Positions 52,469 through 62,245 of a stretch of 64,000 bases of DNA are shown in pieces. How positions within the stretch are numbered: the stretch's first letter is position 1; each line of letters starts with the position of its first letter. This DNA comes from Capsaspora owczarzaki ATCC 30864 (Eukaryota > Opisthokonta > Filasterea). Below the pieces are notes generated by a model. The model was not told where the DNA came from. It ran no database searches and saw nothing but the letters and a program-made list of their open reading frames with translations. Location of the stretch: positions 62,001 through 126,000 of the forward strand of contig NW_011887293.1 in NCBI RefSeq assembly GCF_000151315.2, read 5' to 3'. The position numbers and the translations under genes were made by a program.

Positions 52469-54275
52469 ATGCATCGCCAGCTGCGACTGTTGCACCGCAT
52501 TGTGCTTGCGTTGGCAGCAACGTGCGCTCTATCGGCGGCCATCCATACGCAGTCACGACCGGCGCTCGCTGCGGCGGTTTCAAGTGACCATCAGCGCGAC
52601 CTGTTCCTCGTCCCGCCGGTTGAACTCGCTGCCGCTCCGTACGCCGACTGGGCTCACTCGCATTGGTACGACCGCACGCGCGACGCTCATCCGGATTGCA
52701 TTTTGCGCTGCTACTTTATCATCGCCCTCCGTTGCATGGATGTGCATCGTGCAATGCTGGGGGGGGGGAAGGTGGTCAACATCGCGTCCATCAAAACAGC
52801 GGCAGCAACTCGCTTTTTGATCGCTCTTCAAATACATGTATCGTCAATCGCGATTCAATCCGTGAAATGCACCACTGACTGATATCTCTGCGTATGTGTG
52901 TATGGATGATGGTGACTGGTTGGACTGCACAGGGTTTGGCTCGCAAGCGGCCCGGCTGGCCAGAATGCATCGCTTGAATTGGTTCAAGAATACCTGGACC
53001 GCCAGATTCGCGTTGGTACGGAGTGGGTGACTTGGATCCCCCAATGAACTGACACTCCTCAATCCATATGGCGACCAGCTGAGAATAACCGATCAGCTCT
53101 TCACAATAACATGCTGTTGCAAACTGGCTGAAATTTCCTGTTGTGTTTGTTTGTTTTGTTTGTTTGCTTGTTTGTTTTGTTTGTCTGCTTGTTTTTTTGT
53201 TTGTTTGTTTTTTTGTCACGTCGCTGCTCTCGTTCAATAGGTGGCTATGACATTGACTCTGGATGGGCAACGAGCTACACGACGTTCGAGTGGGATACCA
53301 AAAAGTACCCAGATCCTCAGGCTTTGATCGATAGCATGCACGCGCAGGGCGTTCGGGTCATTCTGTGGGCCACATCCACGATCGCCGTCACTTCACCGCT
53401 GTACAACTACACGTCAGAACACGGCTATCTTCTCAAGCACCTGTTGACGGGAAAGGACGCCATCATTCACTACTGGCACGGCGATGCGGCGTATATCGAC
53501 TATACCAATCCGGATGCAGTCGCGTTCTATCATTCACTGATGGACAATCAACTCAAGCAGGTAGGGAAAGGAGCGTTGCTGTGGTGCCGTACTTGCTGAC
53601 GTGGAGAAGCGGCTAATTTTTCTTGTGGGGCATAGGGTTACGACGGCTGGAAGAACGATGGTGAGAAATCATCCTGTGTTTTGTTTTTTTGTTTGTTTGC
53701 TGGTTTTGTTTGTTTGTTGGTTTTGCTTGGTTGTCGGTTTGTTTCTATGACTGGCATTACCCATTTGCGTCTCTTCTCCTCTCATCAACCACCTCTCCCT
53801 CCTTTGATCACTTGTTTCGGACTAGGAACGGATCCCTTCTTGCTTGAGGTGGAGCTGGAAGGTGGCATTCTTGCGCACAAGGGCGTTATTACCGAGCGCG
53901 AGTACGCAAATTTGTACTACACGGACTTTTTCGAATACTCTCGCCAAGTCAACGGCAATGTGACGCTGTGCATGAACCGCCCGTATGACTCGTACGAGAA
54001 TTACGTGTACTGGAGATTTGCCCCGCGTGACGTTGTCTTTTCTGGCTGGGTGGGCGACGAGGACCCGACTTTTGAAGGGCTGCAAGATGCTCTCAAGAAC
54101 ATGATCTACTCTGCTGCCAACAACTACGTGTCGTTCGGCTCGGACATTGGTGGCTACCGGCTTGGGGACAATGCCCGTACCATTCAAGTGCTCCTACGCT
54201 GGGCTCAGCTTGGCGCTTTTGTTGGTACGGCTTTTGTGCGGGAAGAGAGGTGATGAACCGAAAGTGTTTTGGCTG

Positions 54276-54316
<41 letters not shown>

Positions 54317-55249
54317 GGTTGCTCGTGTTTCGATCATTACATCCTTTGGCACTTGCCCACAGGTCTGATGGAGAACGGTGGCGATGGCGAGCACCGCCCT
54401 TGGGGATTCAATCCGACGGATAACTCGACAACAGACATCTACCGGACGTTTGTGGACGCCCACTATGAGATTGCACCCTACCTGCTCTCGCTTGGCGCGC
54501 AGGCATACGCATCGGGCTCATCCATCATGCGCCCTTACACGGATCAGCTCATTGACATTGTCAACTTTGACTACTCGCTTGGGAGCGACCTCTTCGTGTC
54601 ACCCATTGTCGACAACACGACCAGCCATACTGTAAACTTCCCGCGGAATGCAGTCAATGCTTCCGACAATGCAATCGACTCGTGGGTCTACTGGTTTGAC
54701 CCGACGGCCGTCCATCAAGGCGGCACGACTGGCCGCGACCTGCCGTTCCCTTTGAGTCAGTACCCCGTGTACAAGCGTGTGGGCGCCGTCATTCCCATTC
54801 ATCTGTATGAAAGCGCGCTGGCCCCGTCGCGTGTGGCCTGGAGCAACACTGAATTGCCGATTTTGGCTGTCGAGGCTGTCTGGCCCCAAGGCTTGGCTGT
54901 CAACACTCCGGCGGCCGCAGTTGCTCTGGTACATCCGCACGCGGCTTCTGTGATTGATCGCGGTGTCCAGATTGCCCTCGAGCGTCCGACGTACCATTCG
55001 CTCCAGCTGCAGGTTTCTGCCTCACCCCGCCCGTTCATTGCGCGCATTACAGGCGTCGATTCCTCATCCGTCCCTCGTGTTGTACTGACGAGCTCTGGTC
55101 TTGTTGCCCGGCAAGTGAAGACGCTCGAGGATTTGCTTCCAGGAACCTTCCATCTCTGCCCGGCGCGCGGTGTCTTGCACGTTCGGCTGGCGAGCATTGA
55201 ACGCGGCGAAATCATTTCCGTCGACAACCTGACCCTCCGGCCGCTGTGA
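52469..55249 (+). CDS. Secreted glycoside hydrolase family 31 protein
   Basis: GH31 enzymes cleave alpha-glucosidic or alpha-xylosidic bonds with retention. Exons 52469-52665, 52933-53015, 53241-53560, 53636-53660, 53826-54224 and 54363-55249 give 636 residues. The start (MHRQLRLLHRIVLALAATCA) is a signal peptide. The barrel is seen in YDIDSGWATSYTTFEWD and MHAQGVRVILWATS. The nucleophile motif WKNDGTDPF puts the Asp at about residue 208; exon 4, which ends in its Asp codon, is only 25 nt. The acid/base motif GSDIGGY puts its Asp at about residue 315. The C-terminal beta domains end at VDNLTLRPL. The N-terminal domain is shorter than in classic acid alpha-glucosidases, so the true substrate is open. 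A (GA)n tract sits in the last intron (about 54281-54315). Confidence 0.9.
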
Positions 55250-55310
55250 ATACTGTTTGTTGGTGCTTTGCCAGAGACTGCTGGTCAATGTTTTTGGAAT
55301 TTATAAATAG

Positions 55311-55533
55311 CAACAGTGCGTCAACATCAACGAGTGCACCACCTTGAACGGTGGCTGCAACCAGACGTGTACAAATTCGGTTGGATCGTACGAATGAGTG
55401 CAATGGCATCCCGTTCCCATGCAGCAGTGATGCCTTCTGCACAAACACTCCTGGAAACTACTCGTGCGCCTGCAAGCCTGGCTTTTCGGGCAATGGTTTC
55501 GGGTGCCTCAAGAAATCGAAAAAAAAAAACTGA
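55311..55533 (+). pseudogene. Relic of calcium-binding EGF-like repeats
   Basis: Shortly after the GH31 stop, one frame reads NINECTTLNGGCNQTC and TNSVGSYE, then a stop. Just there, a second frame takes over with NECNGIPFPCSSDAFC, TNTPGNYSCACKPGF and GNGFGCL. Each half is a cbEGF repeat (D/N-x-N-E-C start, six Cys); the end of the first repeat is missing. I see no start codon, signal peptide or splice sites joining them. It looks like a partial copy of a longer EGF-repeat gene with an internal deletion, not a live gene. Confidence 0.6.
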
Positions 55534-55742: not shown

Positions 55743-58700
55743 TCATTCGAAATAAATCGTCTCGAACAGAACAGTTCCATTCTCGCTGGGTCGAACTTGA
55801 ACTTGCCAACCCCCGCGCATTTCCCGGAGGATGGGAGTAGTCTCTGGCCGGATCGTCGCACACTCGAGGTTCCCCTCGTAAAACTCGGTCGGGGATATCG
55901 CACATTCGTACCGAATGACACCTTGCTCATCTCGGAAAATCAAATCAAAATAGTCGTCCTCGGGGCGGCAGCCCTGATATCCCATCCCACGAGCCACGTG
56001 AATTGACTTCACACGAACCGAACCTCCACTAATCCTTTTAGGCAGTGTGACTTTCAGCACGGGGGAATCATCATAAAACCGTGATCGCTTGGTATGCTGC
56101 ACGCCTTGCCAGTAGTGCGCTTCGTCCATAATATGCGCGGCAATCTCAGCTGGAAGTGCCGGTAGAGATGCGGATTGATCCTCCAGCTGCAGTCCGCTGG
56201 TCAGCAGGAGGAAGACGGTCTGGAGGTCTTCAGCAGTTACTAATCGTGGAAGTTTGAAGAAAGCCAGAGGATTAATCTGGTCGTCGAAGCTGTGCAGCGA
56301 ACAATTACAATTAGTGGGCAGTCAGCACGGCCATCCATTGGTTCGAGGAACACTTGCGTGGGAAGAGGCTCTCATGTTCAAGTTCACAAAACAGCACCTA
56401 CGTAAGCTCCAGCCTGCAGTTGTCTTCGCGTGCATCTAGAAGCGCGGAACATCCGTAGGTCATGCAATTACGGTCTAGACTGTCGCAATGCATGAGTGGG
56501 GATGGACAACATAGCAAGTATACCTGACTGGCTCAGTTTTCGATACCAGCAAAGCGCACAGCGGCTTACAGGAGCTTAGTCATCGTCGTGTTCACTTCGA
56601 GTGCATCAGCAAGCGCGCAAGCTCCGTCATCGCCAATCTCATTTGTGTGCAAACTGTCCACTCGATTCACCAGTGAGCGCCCTTGCTGCACTCTGCTGAA
56701 ATCACCCACTCACATGCAAGACTCGACGTGAGGTGCCTTACCCTAGCACAGTCAGCGTCGTGTTCACTTTGAGTGCCTCGGCAATCGCCTCCGCTCCAAC
56801 ATTGCCAATCTGATTCTCACCCAGACTGTCCACATCCCCTCCATCGGTGAGCACTCTAAATGCTCTCTGCTGTATTCACCCACTCACATACACCAGTCAC
56901 AGTGGGAGACTTACTTGAGCCAAGTCAACGTCGTGTTAACTTTGAGTGCTGCAGCAATCGTGTTCGCTCCAGCGTCGCCAATGTGATTCTCACTCAGCCT
57001 GTCCACATCCCTTCCATCATCGGTGAGCACTCTGAATGCTATCTGCTGAATTGCTCACTAACAAGCATCAATGAAAGCGAGGTGCCTTACCTGAGGTCGA
57101 TCAGCCTTTTGTTCACTTTGAGTGCCTCGCCAATGGCCTGCGCTCCAGCATCGCCAATCTGATTGGCGTCCAGACTGTCCATCCCCGCAATCAGTCGGTG
57201 TTCAGAATACGCTCTGAAATCACAGCAACTTACAAGAGCTTCTTCAGTGTTGAGTTCACCTTGAGTGCCTGAGCAATCGCCTGCGCTCCAGCATCGCCGA
57301 TTTGATTGGCGTCCAGACTGTCCACATCCCCTCCATGGGTGAGCATTCTAAGCTATGTTGAAATCACCAACGCAAATGCATCAGTAAATTTGAGATGCCT
57401 TACTCGAGCATAGTCAGCGTCGAGTTCACCTTGAGTGCCTCACCAAACACCTTCGCTCCAGCATCGCCGATCTGATTGCCGTCCAGACTGTCCATCCCCT
57501 CCATCGGTGAGCACTCTAAATGCTCTCTGCTGGATCGCTCACTAACAAGCATCAATGAAAGCGAGGTGCCTTACCTGAGGTCGATCAGCCTTTTGTTCAC
57601 TTTGAGTGCCTCGCCAATGGCCTGCGCTCCAGCATCGCCAATCTGATTGGCGTCCAGACTGACCATCCTCGCAATCAGTCGGTGTTCAGAATACGCTCCG
57701 AAATCACAGCAACTTACAAGAGCTTCTTCAGTGTTGAGTTCACCTTGAGTGCCTGAGCAATCGCCTGCGCTCCAGCGTCGCCAATCTGATTGCCGTCCAG
57801 ACTGTCCACATCCCCTCCATCGGTGAGCACTCTAAATGCTCTCTGCTGTATTCACCCACTCACATACACCAGTCAAAGTGGGAGACTAACTTGAGCCAAG
57901 TCAGCGTCGTATTCACTTTGAGTGCCTCGGCAATGGCCTGCGCTCCAGCATCGCCGATTTGATTGGCGTCCAGACTGTCCACATCCCCTCCATGGGTGAG
58001 CATTCTAAGCTATGTTGAAATCACCAACGCAAATGCATCAGTAAATTTGAGATGCCTTACTCGAGCATAGTCAGCGTCGAGTTCACCTTGAGTGCCTCAC
58101 CAATGGCCTGAGCTCCAACTTCGCCGATCTGACTTTTGTTCAAGCTGTCCATTCCCTCCACCAGTGAGCGCCCTTGCTGCACTCTACTGAAATCACCCAC
58201 TCGCATGCAAGACTCAATGTGAGATGCCTTACCCTAGGCCAGTCAGCGTCGTGTGCCCTTTGAGTGCCTCAGCAAGCACCTTCGCTCCGGCATCGCCGAT
58301 CTGATTGCCGTCCAGACTGTCCACATCCCCTCCATCGGTGAGCACTCTAAATGCTCTCTGCTGTATTCACCCACTCACATACACCAGTCAAAGTGGGAGA
58401 CTTACTTGAGATAAGTCAGCGTTGTGTTCACCTTGAGCGCCTCAGCAATGGCTTGCGCTCCAAGATCCAATCTGATTTTCTTTCAACCTGTTCGTATCCC
58501 TTCCTTCAGTGAGTACCATGCCTACCCGCTGTTGACGCCACCCACTGACTCCAAATGCATCAGTACAAAGTGATGTGACATACTTGAGCCAAGTCAGCGT
58601 GTTCACCTTGAGTGCTTCAGCTATCGCTTGAGCTTCAACATCGTCAATCCGTTCCTCATTCAGACTGGTTCCGATTCGTCAGCATGCGCACACTCACATT

Positions 58701-58808
58701 GTTCCAATAACGTCGGGGTTTCTCTTACTCGAGCCCTTCAGTCGCATTCTTGACTTTGTCATACAGCTCGCGCTGGAGCTCGTTCATATCATCCATAACT
58801 GCCTGCAT
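55743..58808 (-). CDS. Leucine-rich-repeat (RNI-type) protein encoded by tandem 84-nt exons
   Basis: The first exon 58808-58729 reads MQAVMDDMNELQRELYDK. It is followed by LRR exons 58664-58584, 58487-58406, 58316-58233, 58144-58061, 57974-57891, 57801-57718, 57658-57575, 57487-57404, 57317-57234, 57174-57091, 56998-56915, 56825-56742 and 56653-56570. Then come a capping exon 56479-56402 and a last exon 56289-55743. Every junction has the same phase, and most units encode 28 residues of the type LDANQIGDAGAQAIAEALKV, the ribonuclease-inhibitor-like LRR of NLR proteins. The last exon contains LPALPAEIAAHIMDEAHYW, faintly F-box-like, and an unrecognised beta-rich end. The unit at 58487-58406 is 82 nt and shifts the frame. 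Leaving it out gives 569 residues, so it is either skipped or the gene is broken. The target is unknown. Confidence 0.75.
56400..58670 (-). repeat. Tandem array of LRR exon-intron units
   Basis: About fourteen related exons with introns of about 60-120 nt. Introns are as alike as exons in places. One pair of units (57091-57317) recurs with its introns at +484. A block near 57285-57443 recurs almost unchanged at +657. A third intron type (CTCCATCGGTGAGCACTCTA) recurs after the units near 56822, 57798 and 58313. This points to repeated unequal exchange. Confidence 0.85.
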
Positions 58809-59404: not shown

Positions 59405-62245
59405 ATGTCGTTCTATCGTCCAAAGCCCACACTCACTTCCGCGTCCAGCAGCAATGCGGCTACGCAGCGTGAAACTGGTCCCGACATGAATTCTGATTCA
59501 ATTGTTGGACACGCAGCCGCCATTCCTGCCATCCACGCCGAGGCCACTTTGGACGCGCCCACTGCGTCCACAACCGAGCGCTTTGATGTACCGACCAAGC
59601 GGCTCGTTCAAGCCCGGCGCCGCGAGCTGTGAGTGTTGGTTGTTTCTTTTTCTTTCTTTTTTTTTTTTTTTGGCGGGAGATGCATCCTCGTGCGAACTCA
59701 CGCTCCCTGAACCTTCGTCCGCACTCGACTGCACAGCCTATGGAAGCAAAAGCTTGATCACTACAGAGCAGTCGCAGCTCGGCTTGCTCGGACGCACCTT
59801 CCAGCCGAGAATCCCTTCAGGTGAGTGATGACCACGATTCGGTGTGTTTCCCGCCAAAACCAACAGGGCTCTCCACCCCCACCTGCAGCATCATCCTGTG
59901 ACTTACGACATGGGAGCTAACGCAAGAGGGGTTTGTCCCAAAATTTAATCTGTGAATACTTGCATCTGTGCGAATATGGGAACGCCGCCACAGCGCATCG
60001 CTGTTTCATGTGTGGCGCATCTTCCCGAAACAGGACATGGCGTTTGCGTTTGCCGGCTCGTGCTTCCACAAGGTGCATGTATTTGCATTCGAGGCACCAA
60101 ACTTTACTGCGGGCCGGCGCAAGTTTCTGGTGACTTCCTATGCCGAATTTTGGCACGTTTACAGGTACCGGCATTTTGTGCAGCTGGGGGATTTTGTCAT
60201 TCAGGTCGCTGACTTTGCTGGCTGCGCAACACAGTCAGCTTCTGTCGGATCAACGGCACTACTATGAAGTCATTCCAGATGGTAAGAATATAAAACGCGT
60301 TGGCGGGGGGGGCCTTGCCAATCAATGAGCGCAATCCATCTCATGACAATCGTACCATTGTTCCGCATTGCAGGCTGCGTCTGCAAGGCGTACTTTGACG
60401 TCGAGTTTAATGCCTCCCTCAACCCGACTTTAGACGGGTGCAAGGCGATTGATGTACTCGTTCGAGTGAGTGCTGTCGCGTCCTAGAATGGCGTGCTCGA
60501 TTGCGCAGAGCTGACCTTCACGTATTCCTCCAATGCGTTCAGGCAATCCAATATGCGTTTCGGAAATGGTTTTCAATCACGGTTGCGCGAGATCAGATTT
60601 TGGATCTTGATTCTACGACGCAAGCAAAGTTTTCGAGACATTTAATTGTAAATTTGCCCGGTGCAGCCTTTCAGAGCAACGAGCATGTTGGTAAGTGTCC
60701 TCCTCTTTTCAAAAAAAAAAACAGAACAAGCTGATCGTTCATTCATGCACCCGACAATCAGGTCTTTTCGTTGAATGGCTGGCCGGTCAAGCAGAGTGCT
60801 GGCGGACGGATCCATCAACGATGCCCGCGGAGGTCGGCATCGGAGCCGATGAGGTTGAAGTGCTATTTGCCTGCACTGATAAAGGAACTCGCACGCTGAT
60901 GGTTGACCGAGGCAAGAGAGTGGCCGTTGAATGGTGGATGTGTGACAGCTACTCTTTTGTTTTGGCGTCCTGACTGGATTGATTTTTGTGACTGACTTTG
61001 TGCCCTCGTACCCAGGTGTGTATTCGCGGAATCGCAACTTTCGCATTTACCTCTCTTCCAAACAAGGGAAACGCGTGCGCCTCGTCGCTTCCGAGCAAAA
61101 CTCGCGCATTCCCAAAAGTTCAGAGACGGGATTGCCCATGGTCGTTCCCAGCACGCCTGCCAGTTTGACTGCAACTTTGCCTGAAAAGGTTTGGTCTGCA
61201 AGCGAGCGAGCCTTTCACCATGCCGTCTTTCTTGATTCCTTGATTTGTAACGTTCCCTTTTCACAAGGCGTGCGCATCCTCAGCTGGCCAGGGGCTTCAG
61301 CGGCTCCACGTCGAAAAGCGTTCACCGCTGCCACCAGCTCAAGTACGACATCTTGCTCGTGTGATTACTTTTTGTTTTCGCGTACATGCGCGCAGCTCAC
61401 GTTGCTCGATTGTGTTTGTTGAAGCCGTCGGCGGGGCTAACGTCAGAACGAGCCAGGGTGAGGCGAGTTCACCCTACCCTGCAGTCGACGCTTTCATTCT
61501 GAACGCTGCGTCAGCGATGGGGCCACCTGCTCGATTGCGCCGTTGGATTCACTTTTCGGAAAGTAAGTACCAGTGTTTCCGTGAGAATGCGGCAATGCTA
61601 AACTCGCATTGGTTGCTCATGACCTCGTGCCGCCTTTCTCTCCCTCCCCCCGTCGCCCCGCCCTCGCGCCGCACCTTTTGGTTTGTAGGCATGTGTCTCT
61701 TATATGACATTTCGGGAAATCGATGGTGTCATAACATTGATCGCGAGCACAAGTCGAATGGCGTTTACTACGTGGTGGACCTGTCCTCTCGCACATGGTC
61801 ACAGCGGTGCTACGACCCCGACTGCCGCGGTTTTCGCTCGGCTACTTCTGTGTTGCCCAACGATGTGCTTCAAGCCAGCGGTGCATCGGAGGGTCGTTCC
61901 CGTGATGGGATCGCTGGCGGCGAAATAGATGAGGATGATCCATACTTGCTTCTGACGGCCGAAGATGCTTCGTTCCTTGCTGCACTAGAGTCTCTGGAGT
62001 CTGATGCGTTGCCATCATCTGAGTCAGCTTTGGAGAGCATCTGCTGCGAGACCGAGCTTTGTGACTCTGCCGAAGATCTTGAGTTGGACAAGGTGATGAA
62101 TCAAGTGTTGGATATCGTCGAAATGGAAGCTAGGAATCGTGGTTCACCCGTCGAGCATGATGGCTGCAATCAGGGCATCAAGAGACGGCGCCGATCGCAG
62201 GATGGACTTGACGATGACAGCAAGCGCGAATGTCTGGAATGGTGA
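59405..62245 (+). CDS. PRIMPOL: Primase-polymerase PrimPol
   Basis: PrimPol reprimes stalled replication forks and bypasses lesions. Ten exons: 59405-59628, 59737-59820, 59994-60164, 60235-60281, 60374-60465, 60543-60690, 60762-60911, 61016-61342, 61425-61562 and 61689-62245, giving 645 residues (human 560). Family landmarks: LFHVWRIFPKQDMAFAFAG, HVFAFEA, VTSYAEFWHVYR, the catalytic DxE in AYFDVEF, KFSRHLIVNLPG (third metal and primer site), and GVYSRNRNFRIYLSS. The zinc knuckle reads RWCHNIDREHKSNG, then the Cys pair in RCYDPDC. The acidic C-terminal motif DDPYLLLTAEDASFLAALES parallels the RPA-binding motif of human PRIMPOL. Intron 7 (60912-61015) has a GC donor (G|GCAAGA); the frame excludes nearby GT sites. 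The N-terminal 70 residues are unlike other family members. Confidence 0.95.

Follow-up and report, generated by a model that had tools for sequence, protein, structure and literature searches.

An array of leucine-rich repeat (LRR) exons in the genome of Capsaspora owczarzaki ATCC 30864 raises the question of whether a unicellular relative of animals can diversify a recognition surface by adding, losing and exchanging whole exon-intron units, and whether such a system would be new. The array lies in the window, a stretch of 64,000 nt (G000:C2:62001-126000; the copy of the gene found here is labelled C2), where it occupies positions 56402-58664 as part of a larger minus-strand gene (55743-58808). 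Its features are listed below in the order of transcription.

Exon structure of the array gene and its surroundings

58729-58808, minus strand: exon 1, encoding the conserved N-terminal segment MQAVMDDMNELQRELYDKVKNATEGL.., with 58796 as an alternative start; phase-2 border at its end
58584-58664, minus strand: LRR exon 1, 81 nt, one codon shorter with the frame intact
58406-58487, minus strand: LRR exon 2, 82 nt, breaking the frame if included; the C7 and C10 paralogues have 84 nt here
58233-58316, minus strand: LRR exon 3, 84 nt
58061-58144, minus strand: LRR exon 4, 84 nt
57891-57974, minus strand: LRR exon 5, 84 nt
57718-57801, minus strand: LRR exon 6, 84 nt
57575-57658, minus strand: LRR exon 7, 84 nt
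57404-57487, minus strand: LRR exon 8, 84 nt
57234-57317, minus strand: LRR exon 9, 84 nt
57091-57174, minus strand: LRR exon 10, 84 nt, identical to LRR exon 7
56915-56998, minus strand: LRR exon 11, 84 nt
56742-56825, minus strand: LRR exon 12, 84 nt
56570-56653, minus strand: LRR exon 13, 84 nt
56402-56479, minus strand: degenerate LRR cap exon, 78 nt
55743-56289, minus strand: last exon, encoding a private C-terminal domain of 181 residues plus the stop codon; 130 matches in the genome
57018-57801, minus strand: stretch containing both copies of the 484-nt repeat (57018-57317 against 57502-57801, 96% identity)

An earlier note on this DNA had described each repeat as a single exon with the same phase at both ends, and this design was confirmed on the minus strand: 11 of the 13 LRR exons measure exactly 84 nt (the other two being 82 and 81 nt), and a degenerate cap exon completes the array. 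All 13 are bordered by AG and GT and are separated by 12 introns of 59-96 nt. The in-frame joins place these introns in phase 2, with the codon split after its second base, so that the 84-nt unit is symmetric. A 70-nt core of the unit recurs 13 times in the array at a spacing of 143-176 nt, and the repeat offsets that the note had read from the introns are real, with 300-nt self-matches at offset 484 (96% identity) and at offset 657 (87%).

The claim that units can be added, lost or skipped without breaking the frame stands for the symmetric 84-nt units and fails for the exon at 58406-58487, which had been overlooked: at 82 nt, this exon shifts the frame if included, and keeps it only if skipped as a whole. 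Judged from its sequence, the window copy is either damaged, dependent on the skipping of one exon, or affected by an assembly slip, which makes it a poor type specimen.

Exons of this kind would also suit a mechanism in which diversity is generated by splicing, as in Dscam or ROCO genes, with symmetric exons being skipped in varying sets. The phase-2 borders at both ends of the 84-nt units and the harmlessness of the 82-nt exon when skipped agree with such a mechanism, as do the regulated exon skipping described for Capsaspora (in parts of PMC3870316) and the LRR-exon splice variants of Ectocarpus ROCO genes (in parts of PMC11378527). However, the genes with skipped exons were enriched for kinases in the Capsaspora splicing study (the same parts of PMC3870316), and the term "LRR" occurs 0 times in its main text. 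We consider splice-generated diversity rather unlikely; it would be compatible with the germline repertoire that we favour below.

The encoded repeats are of the ribonuclease inhibitor (RI) type: they are 28 residues long and RI-like, a six-repeat sample matched Pfam LRR_6 (PF13516) above the family cut-off in five stretches (E 4.1e-26), and ribonuclease inhibitors and RI-like proteins are among the best PDB matches. NLRP proteins were also found among the PDB sequence matches of the array. By eye, exon 1 of the window gene contains no signal peptide, so the protein is probably cytoplasmic.

The array gene adjoins a plus-strand gene of glycoside hydrolase family 31 (53636-55246; PF01055, 2.5e-08; PF21365, 2.9e-05). 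Between the two lies an EGF-like, cysteine-rich stretch recognized by eye (55310-55525, plus strand), which is interrupted by an internal stop and is possibly a gene remnant. On the other side, a gene transcribed divergently from the array gene has an exon at 60453-60731 (plus strand) with similarity to PrimPol, a DNA-directed primase/polymerase (PDB 5l2x, E 7e-07); three ORFs in that region had no match in Pfam.

Family size and C-terminal modules

We searched one assembly of the genome, comprising 27.46 Mb on 29 contigs (27,456,641 bases); it contains T-box hits at 4 loci and integrin beta hits at 4, by our grouping, in keeping with Capsaspora. Sister arrays, whose existence the earlier note had proposed to look for, were found genome-wide, with 1030 matches to the LRR unit core pattern at no more than 2 mismatches, versus 0 for the reversed control. 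This count and the 13 core copies in the array led us to reject chance repeats. Because the pattern catches 136 of the 224 units that we extracted, the total would be roughly 1700 units, of which some may belong to other LRR genes. An exact length of 84 nt was found in 203/224 units, and in 42/43 units of the loci fetched later, the 43rd being a stray 77-nt match on the opposite strand of locus L039. The family thereby combines arrays of fixed-length, phase-2 LRR exons with a unit number that varies among close paralogues.

The private C-terminal domain accounts for 130 genome matches at E 0.1 or better; by hand count, 97 of these span at least 160 of the 181 residues, none with an internal stop. 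LRR units were present at all 17 distinct private-domain loci examined (12 plus five further). Among the 20 array loci fetched first, 12 carry the private domain (one shortened and one in two frames) and in 6 the array is followed by a kinase ORF, while in L009 and L010 neither module was seen within 2.5 kb. Four of the 6 kinase ORFs were scanned with Pfam, and all four matched PF07714 and PF00069, two of them also containing a C3HC4 RING; the other two ORFs match the kinase at 87 and 94%. In five later loci, selected since their arrays or core matches neighboured kinase matches, array and kinase lie on one strand (5/5). The kinase module has at least 82 matches at E 1e-40 or better among the 114 of 312 candidates that were scored, counted with or without an array in front. 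By sequence comparison with the PDB, its best solved relatives include the plant kinases SYMRK, BAK1 and FERONIA and animal IRAK1/4, and we assign this module to the RLK/IRAK type from Pfam and these solved relatives rather than from a kinase tree.

A segment of the RELYDKVKNAS type was found upstream of 22/23 arrays (E 6e-14 to 0.045, the weakest of these matches being unconvincing alone). The members examined share a common plan, in which a short N-terminal exon is followed by a variable number of LRR exons and then by one of two modules: the private domain or, in the second class, a coiled-coil-like stretch with an IRAK/Pelle-like kinase, in some cases with a RING. In one instance, elements of both modules occur close together: a private-domain match (C11:381068-381607) lies about 1.3 kb from a kinase match with 2 internal stops (C11:382900-383913) on one strand, in what may be fused, adjacent or decayed genes.

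The private domain of the window copy matched no Pfam family at E 1, and 15 members gave weak, scattered matches. No convincing relative was found by sequence in the PDB (best E 0.54), nor any in viral and prokaryote contigs with a search seeded by a few short conserved stretches; a single-sequence fold prediction of the domain reached a mean pLDDT of 36. The window gene contains no kinase, and scanning the four kinase-class ORFs with Pfam revealed no Death domain. Two established families were considered and rejected: membership among the NLRs, since neither NACHT nor NB-ARC was found in the LRR, C-terminal-domain and kinase-ORF parts scanned and a short N-terminal exon precedes the array, and membership among the ROCO proteins, since ROC-COR is absent from the C-terminal domain of 15 members and from the four kinase-class ORFs.

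Exchange of units within and between genes

Gain and loss of whole exon-intron units, as the earlier note had envisaged, is borne out by three close paralogues on C2, C7 and C10, in which homology reaches beyond the array and which contain 13, 10 and 12 units, respectively, the C7 copy being without three units found in the window copy. At the DNA level, the window and C7 copies are 92-93% identical along two overlapping diagonals offset by about 480-490 nt, in an alignment that begins about 340 nt ahead of the first LRR exon and extends into the C-terminal exon; the window and C10 copies are 88-91% identical on several diagonals. Units 6-7 of C7 match units 6-7 of C2, and again units 9-10 of C2 (94-100%). 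Unit 8 of C2 has no close exon in C7; its best match is unit 6 of C10 (96%), and its downstream intron shares 100% identity with the introns that follow unit 4 of C2, unit 4 of C7 and unit 6 of C10. Each of the three copies bears one defect, in a different place: the 82-nt exon in C2, a shortened C-terminal domain in C7 (where only the first 48 residues were matched) and a C-terminal domain split across two frames in C10.

A similar mixing was observed across 25 loci. The nearest exon lay in the same array for 34/197 clean units, versus a chance expectation of 3.4%, and elsewhere for the other 163/197. The order of neighbouring units was kept for 28/150 units, and for 9/120 outside the C2/C7/C10 trio. 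For about one third of units, the nearest exon in another locus belonged to an array with the other C-terminal module (26/239 units, from L009, L010 and L022, being excluded from this class test). In addition, we detected 32 near-identical intron pairs (7 of the 32 in one locus) between exon segments that have diverged by 5-18% on average at third positions. Within the assembly, these comparisons show the gain and loss of units and their mixing within and between genes, including across the C-terminal module classes.

In some instances the discrepancy between introns and exons is large: the introns behind 57891-57974 and 56915-56998, as well as introns in L015 and L024, are near-identical with both flanking exons about 20-27% different, and near-identical introns with divergent flanking exons occur between contigs too. 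Such patterns fit short exchanges within and between genes. Larger blocks can also be discerned. In L041 (C1:348600-353000), most of the sixteen LRR units alternate between spacings of about 148 and about 168 nt, resembling the outcome of several rounds of amplification of a two-unit block. L015 and L023 each contain two consecutive array segments, and the piece between them holds, by eye, a linker and N-terminal exon sequence, like a partial tandem duplication ahead of a kinase.

The turnover of units bears on a reading in which the array is a scaffold for a fixed ligand, an old specialization without an arms race. In ribonuclease inhibitor, each repeat contacts a different part of one partner; the LRR type found here is the same, and all of the diversity that we measured lies between repeats or paralogues, in line with repeats that would each touch their own part of a single conserved partner. 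However, differences in unit number and order like those among close paralogues would hardly be tolerated by a fixed contact map, and the neighbour order kept in so few units outside the trio also speaks against it. We regard a fixed ligand as improbable.

Divergence at the predicted concave face and comparison with known systems

Variation within the unit is concentrated at a few positions. The amino-acid entropy among 163 clean units is 3.5-3.7 bits at positions 2, 3 and 26 and lies below 1.5 at 19 of the 24 others; among 197 units, it is 3.53, 3.75 and 3.72 at these positions and 3.38 at position 28. Codon 28, which is about as variable by entropy, is interrupted by the intron, so that a variable residue is also set wherever two exons are joined. 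In the LxxLxLxxN layout, we take these variable positions to be the outward residues of the concave strand; E, D, G, S, W, R, Q, K, T, Y and N are abundant among the residues found there. The set of codons 2, 3 and 26 was first chosen by entropy from the same sequences and held in the loci fetched later: these codons vary more than the other 24 in 22/22 arrays with at least five clean units and in 5/5 later arrays with at least four (27/27), and the excess is present in both C-terminal module classes.

For the codon tests we used 197 of the 224 units (84 nt, AG acceptor, no stop; 147 with both introns), and the main test compared disjoint pairs of units chosen by the similarity of their downstream introns alone, at four thresholds. 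In these pairs, nonsynonymous divergence at codons 2, 3 and 26 amounts to 0.39-0.50, versus 0.22-0.29 for synonymous and 0.09-0.12 for nonsynonymous divergence at the other codons. At the four thresholds, the ratio of exposed nonsynonymous to other synonymous divergence was 1.72-1.86, with all bootstrap limits falling within 1.42-2.11, versus a pN/pS of 0.38-0.43 at the other 24 codons. Pairs with ungapped introns of the same length gave ratios of 2.28-2.42, whether the C2/C7/C10 trio was included or left out, and placed codons 2, 3 and 26 at the top of the 27 in the ranking at one threshold. A first test, in which pairs were picked on exon similarity, showed a larger excess that is biased by this choice, and no ratio was taken from it. 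Aligned introns differ by 0.25 on average, versus 0.39 when shuffled, and are thus related but partly saturated; they are an imperfect clock, because recombination decouples them from the exons. The comparisons are between repeats and paralogues, not between alleles.

Among the closest paralogues, C2 and C7 differ by nonsynonymous changes at 4/30 exposed versus 4/240 other codons (Fisher p 0.006), counted over ten exon pairs in which two C7 exons are used twice and from which C2 exons 1 (81 nt), 2 (82 nt) and 8 (without a C7 partner) are excluded. The excess is slight between C2 and C10 (3/15 versus 14/120, some pairings being loose) and absent in the six loosely paired exons of C7 and C10 (2/18 versus 14/144). 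These recent pairs are too few to carry the case for selection. Over the family, codon comparisons show scaffold codons under purifying selection and codons 2, 3 and 26 of the predicted concave face under diversifying change. The earlier note had weighed a diversifying recognition surface against neutral or purifying patterns at exposed positions, and it is the former that the data favour, at 1.7-2.4 times the synonymous rate elsewhere.

This excess also weighs against a rival account, the ordinary amplification of an LRR scaffold under relaxed constraint, in which exposed residues drift and the family reflects mostly repeat turnover. Exposed LRR residues are generally the least constrained, all three of the closest paralogues carry a frame or truncation defect, and the C7/C10 exon pairs are without exposed-site excess, as this account would have it. 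Relaxation, however, lifts nonsynonymous change to the neutral rate and not above it, and the 97 long private-domain matches free of internal stops are not what it would lead one to expect. We hold relaxed constraint to be unlikely, if deserving of some weight; together with old specialization, it keeps some room.

Localized hypermutation or templated mutation at the variable codons could in principle take the place of selection, and variation that is limited to a few codons, always at the same place in the unit, is in keeping with it. Synonymous change at the variable codons is also raised (pS 0.33-0.39), but this is partly explained by multi-step codon changes. Against hypermutation, synonymous divergence at the neighbouring codons 1, 4 and 27 is 0.13, 0.14 and 0.08, versus 0.11 for the 24 codons together, although codon 25 stands at 0.21 and these figures come from a biased choice of pairs. 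Moreover, none of the nine positions in codons 2, 3 and 26 lacks any of the four bases, which argues against a mutational origin and led us to reject adenine-only mutagenesis. Hypermutation appears very improbable.

The window gene is one member of a large amplified family that probably serves as a germline repertoire of recognition proteins renewed by unit exchange. Such a repertoire most simply accounts for the combination of an unchanging scaffold with a hypervariable concave face, and of units that can be exchanged with C-terminal modules that are swapped. By sequence, each protein consists of a short N-terminal segment, a variable number of RI-type 28-residue LRRs and a C-terminal module, and the array and the module that follows would be spliced into one protein. 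The LRR arc would present a cytoplasmic recognition surface, renewed in the germline through unit exchange and selection, and in the kinase class binding would be relayed by phosphorylation or, where a RING is present, by ubiquitination. Proposals for the ligand (a microbe, a virus or kin) and for what the private domain does are guesswork. The more specific proposal, that over 100 cytoplasmic LRR proteins form a selected germline repertoire whose units are shared across outputs including an IRAK/Pelle-like kinase and RING, is put forward tentatively, at somewhat less than even chances.

The earlier note's suggestion of an undescribed system was not upheld, as there are published precedents in brown algal ROCO genes and in Tetrahymena; the design of one LRR per phase-2 exon is itself not new. 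Brown algal ROCO genes contain 72-bp phase-2 LRR exons with four positively selected concave sites and splice variants (in parts of PMC11378527). They resemble the Capsaspora family in placing each LRR on an exon of its own between phase-2 introns, in shuffling these exons, in the selection acting on the concave face and in a candidate role in recognition, and differ from it in exon length, in LRR type and in their ROC-COR GTPase module. In Tetrahymena, 90-bp phase-2 LRR exons number in the tens of thousands, paralogues exchange sequence, and some of the genes are fused to a kinase (in parts of PMC6564038). This unicellular case shares with ours the arrays of equal-length phase-2 LRR exons, ectopic recombination, a unit number that varies among in-paralogues and the occasional fusion to kinases, whereas its exons are 90 bp long, its genes number in the thousands and it is associated with retrotransposons; selection on the concave face is not claimed in these parts of PMC6564038.

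Several human LRR families, the NLRs among them, have a strict exon modularity (in parts of PMC6642158). The LRR domains of vertebrate NLRs and ribonuclease inhibitor have in common with the array an RI-type LRR with exonic modularity; unlike in vertebrate NLRs, no NACHT was found in the window gene. To our knowledge, these vertebrate domains are not known as a shuffling repertoire. The second-class kinase module matches RLK/Pelle kinases (SYMRK, BAK1, BIK1, IRAK1/4) among solved structures, and departs from them in the absence of a Death domain from the four ORFs and in the C-terminal RING of some members, the window gene itself being kinase-less. In lamprey variable lymphocyte receptors, the variable residues lie on the LRR concave face, as is predicted here, and these receptors are assembled somatically and anchored at the cell surface; the sequence of the one assembly gives no sign of either.

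In the titles and abstract openings of the literature naming Capsaspora together with LRR, NOD-like or IRAK, the family is undescribed. As far as these reach, what is new is the 84-nt, RI-type version of the design in a close animal relative, and the private domain with its sharing of LRR units with IRAK/Pelle-like kinase genes. Exon-per-LRR arrays with a diversifying concave face would thereby gain a further unrelated lineage, one that is closely related to animals and can be cultured in the laboratory. The association with an IRAK/Pelle-like kinase and RING makes the origin of animal-type signalling from LRR to kinase testable, as it does the question of whether unicellular holozoans possess any recognition repertoire. 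If true, the proposal would place an immune-like or kin-recognition system near the animal root, equipped with the type of kinase that stands behind the LRR receptors of both animals and plants.
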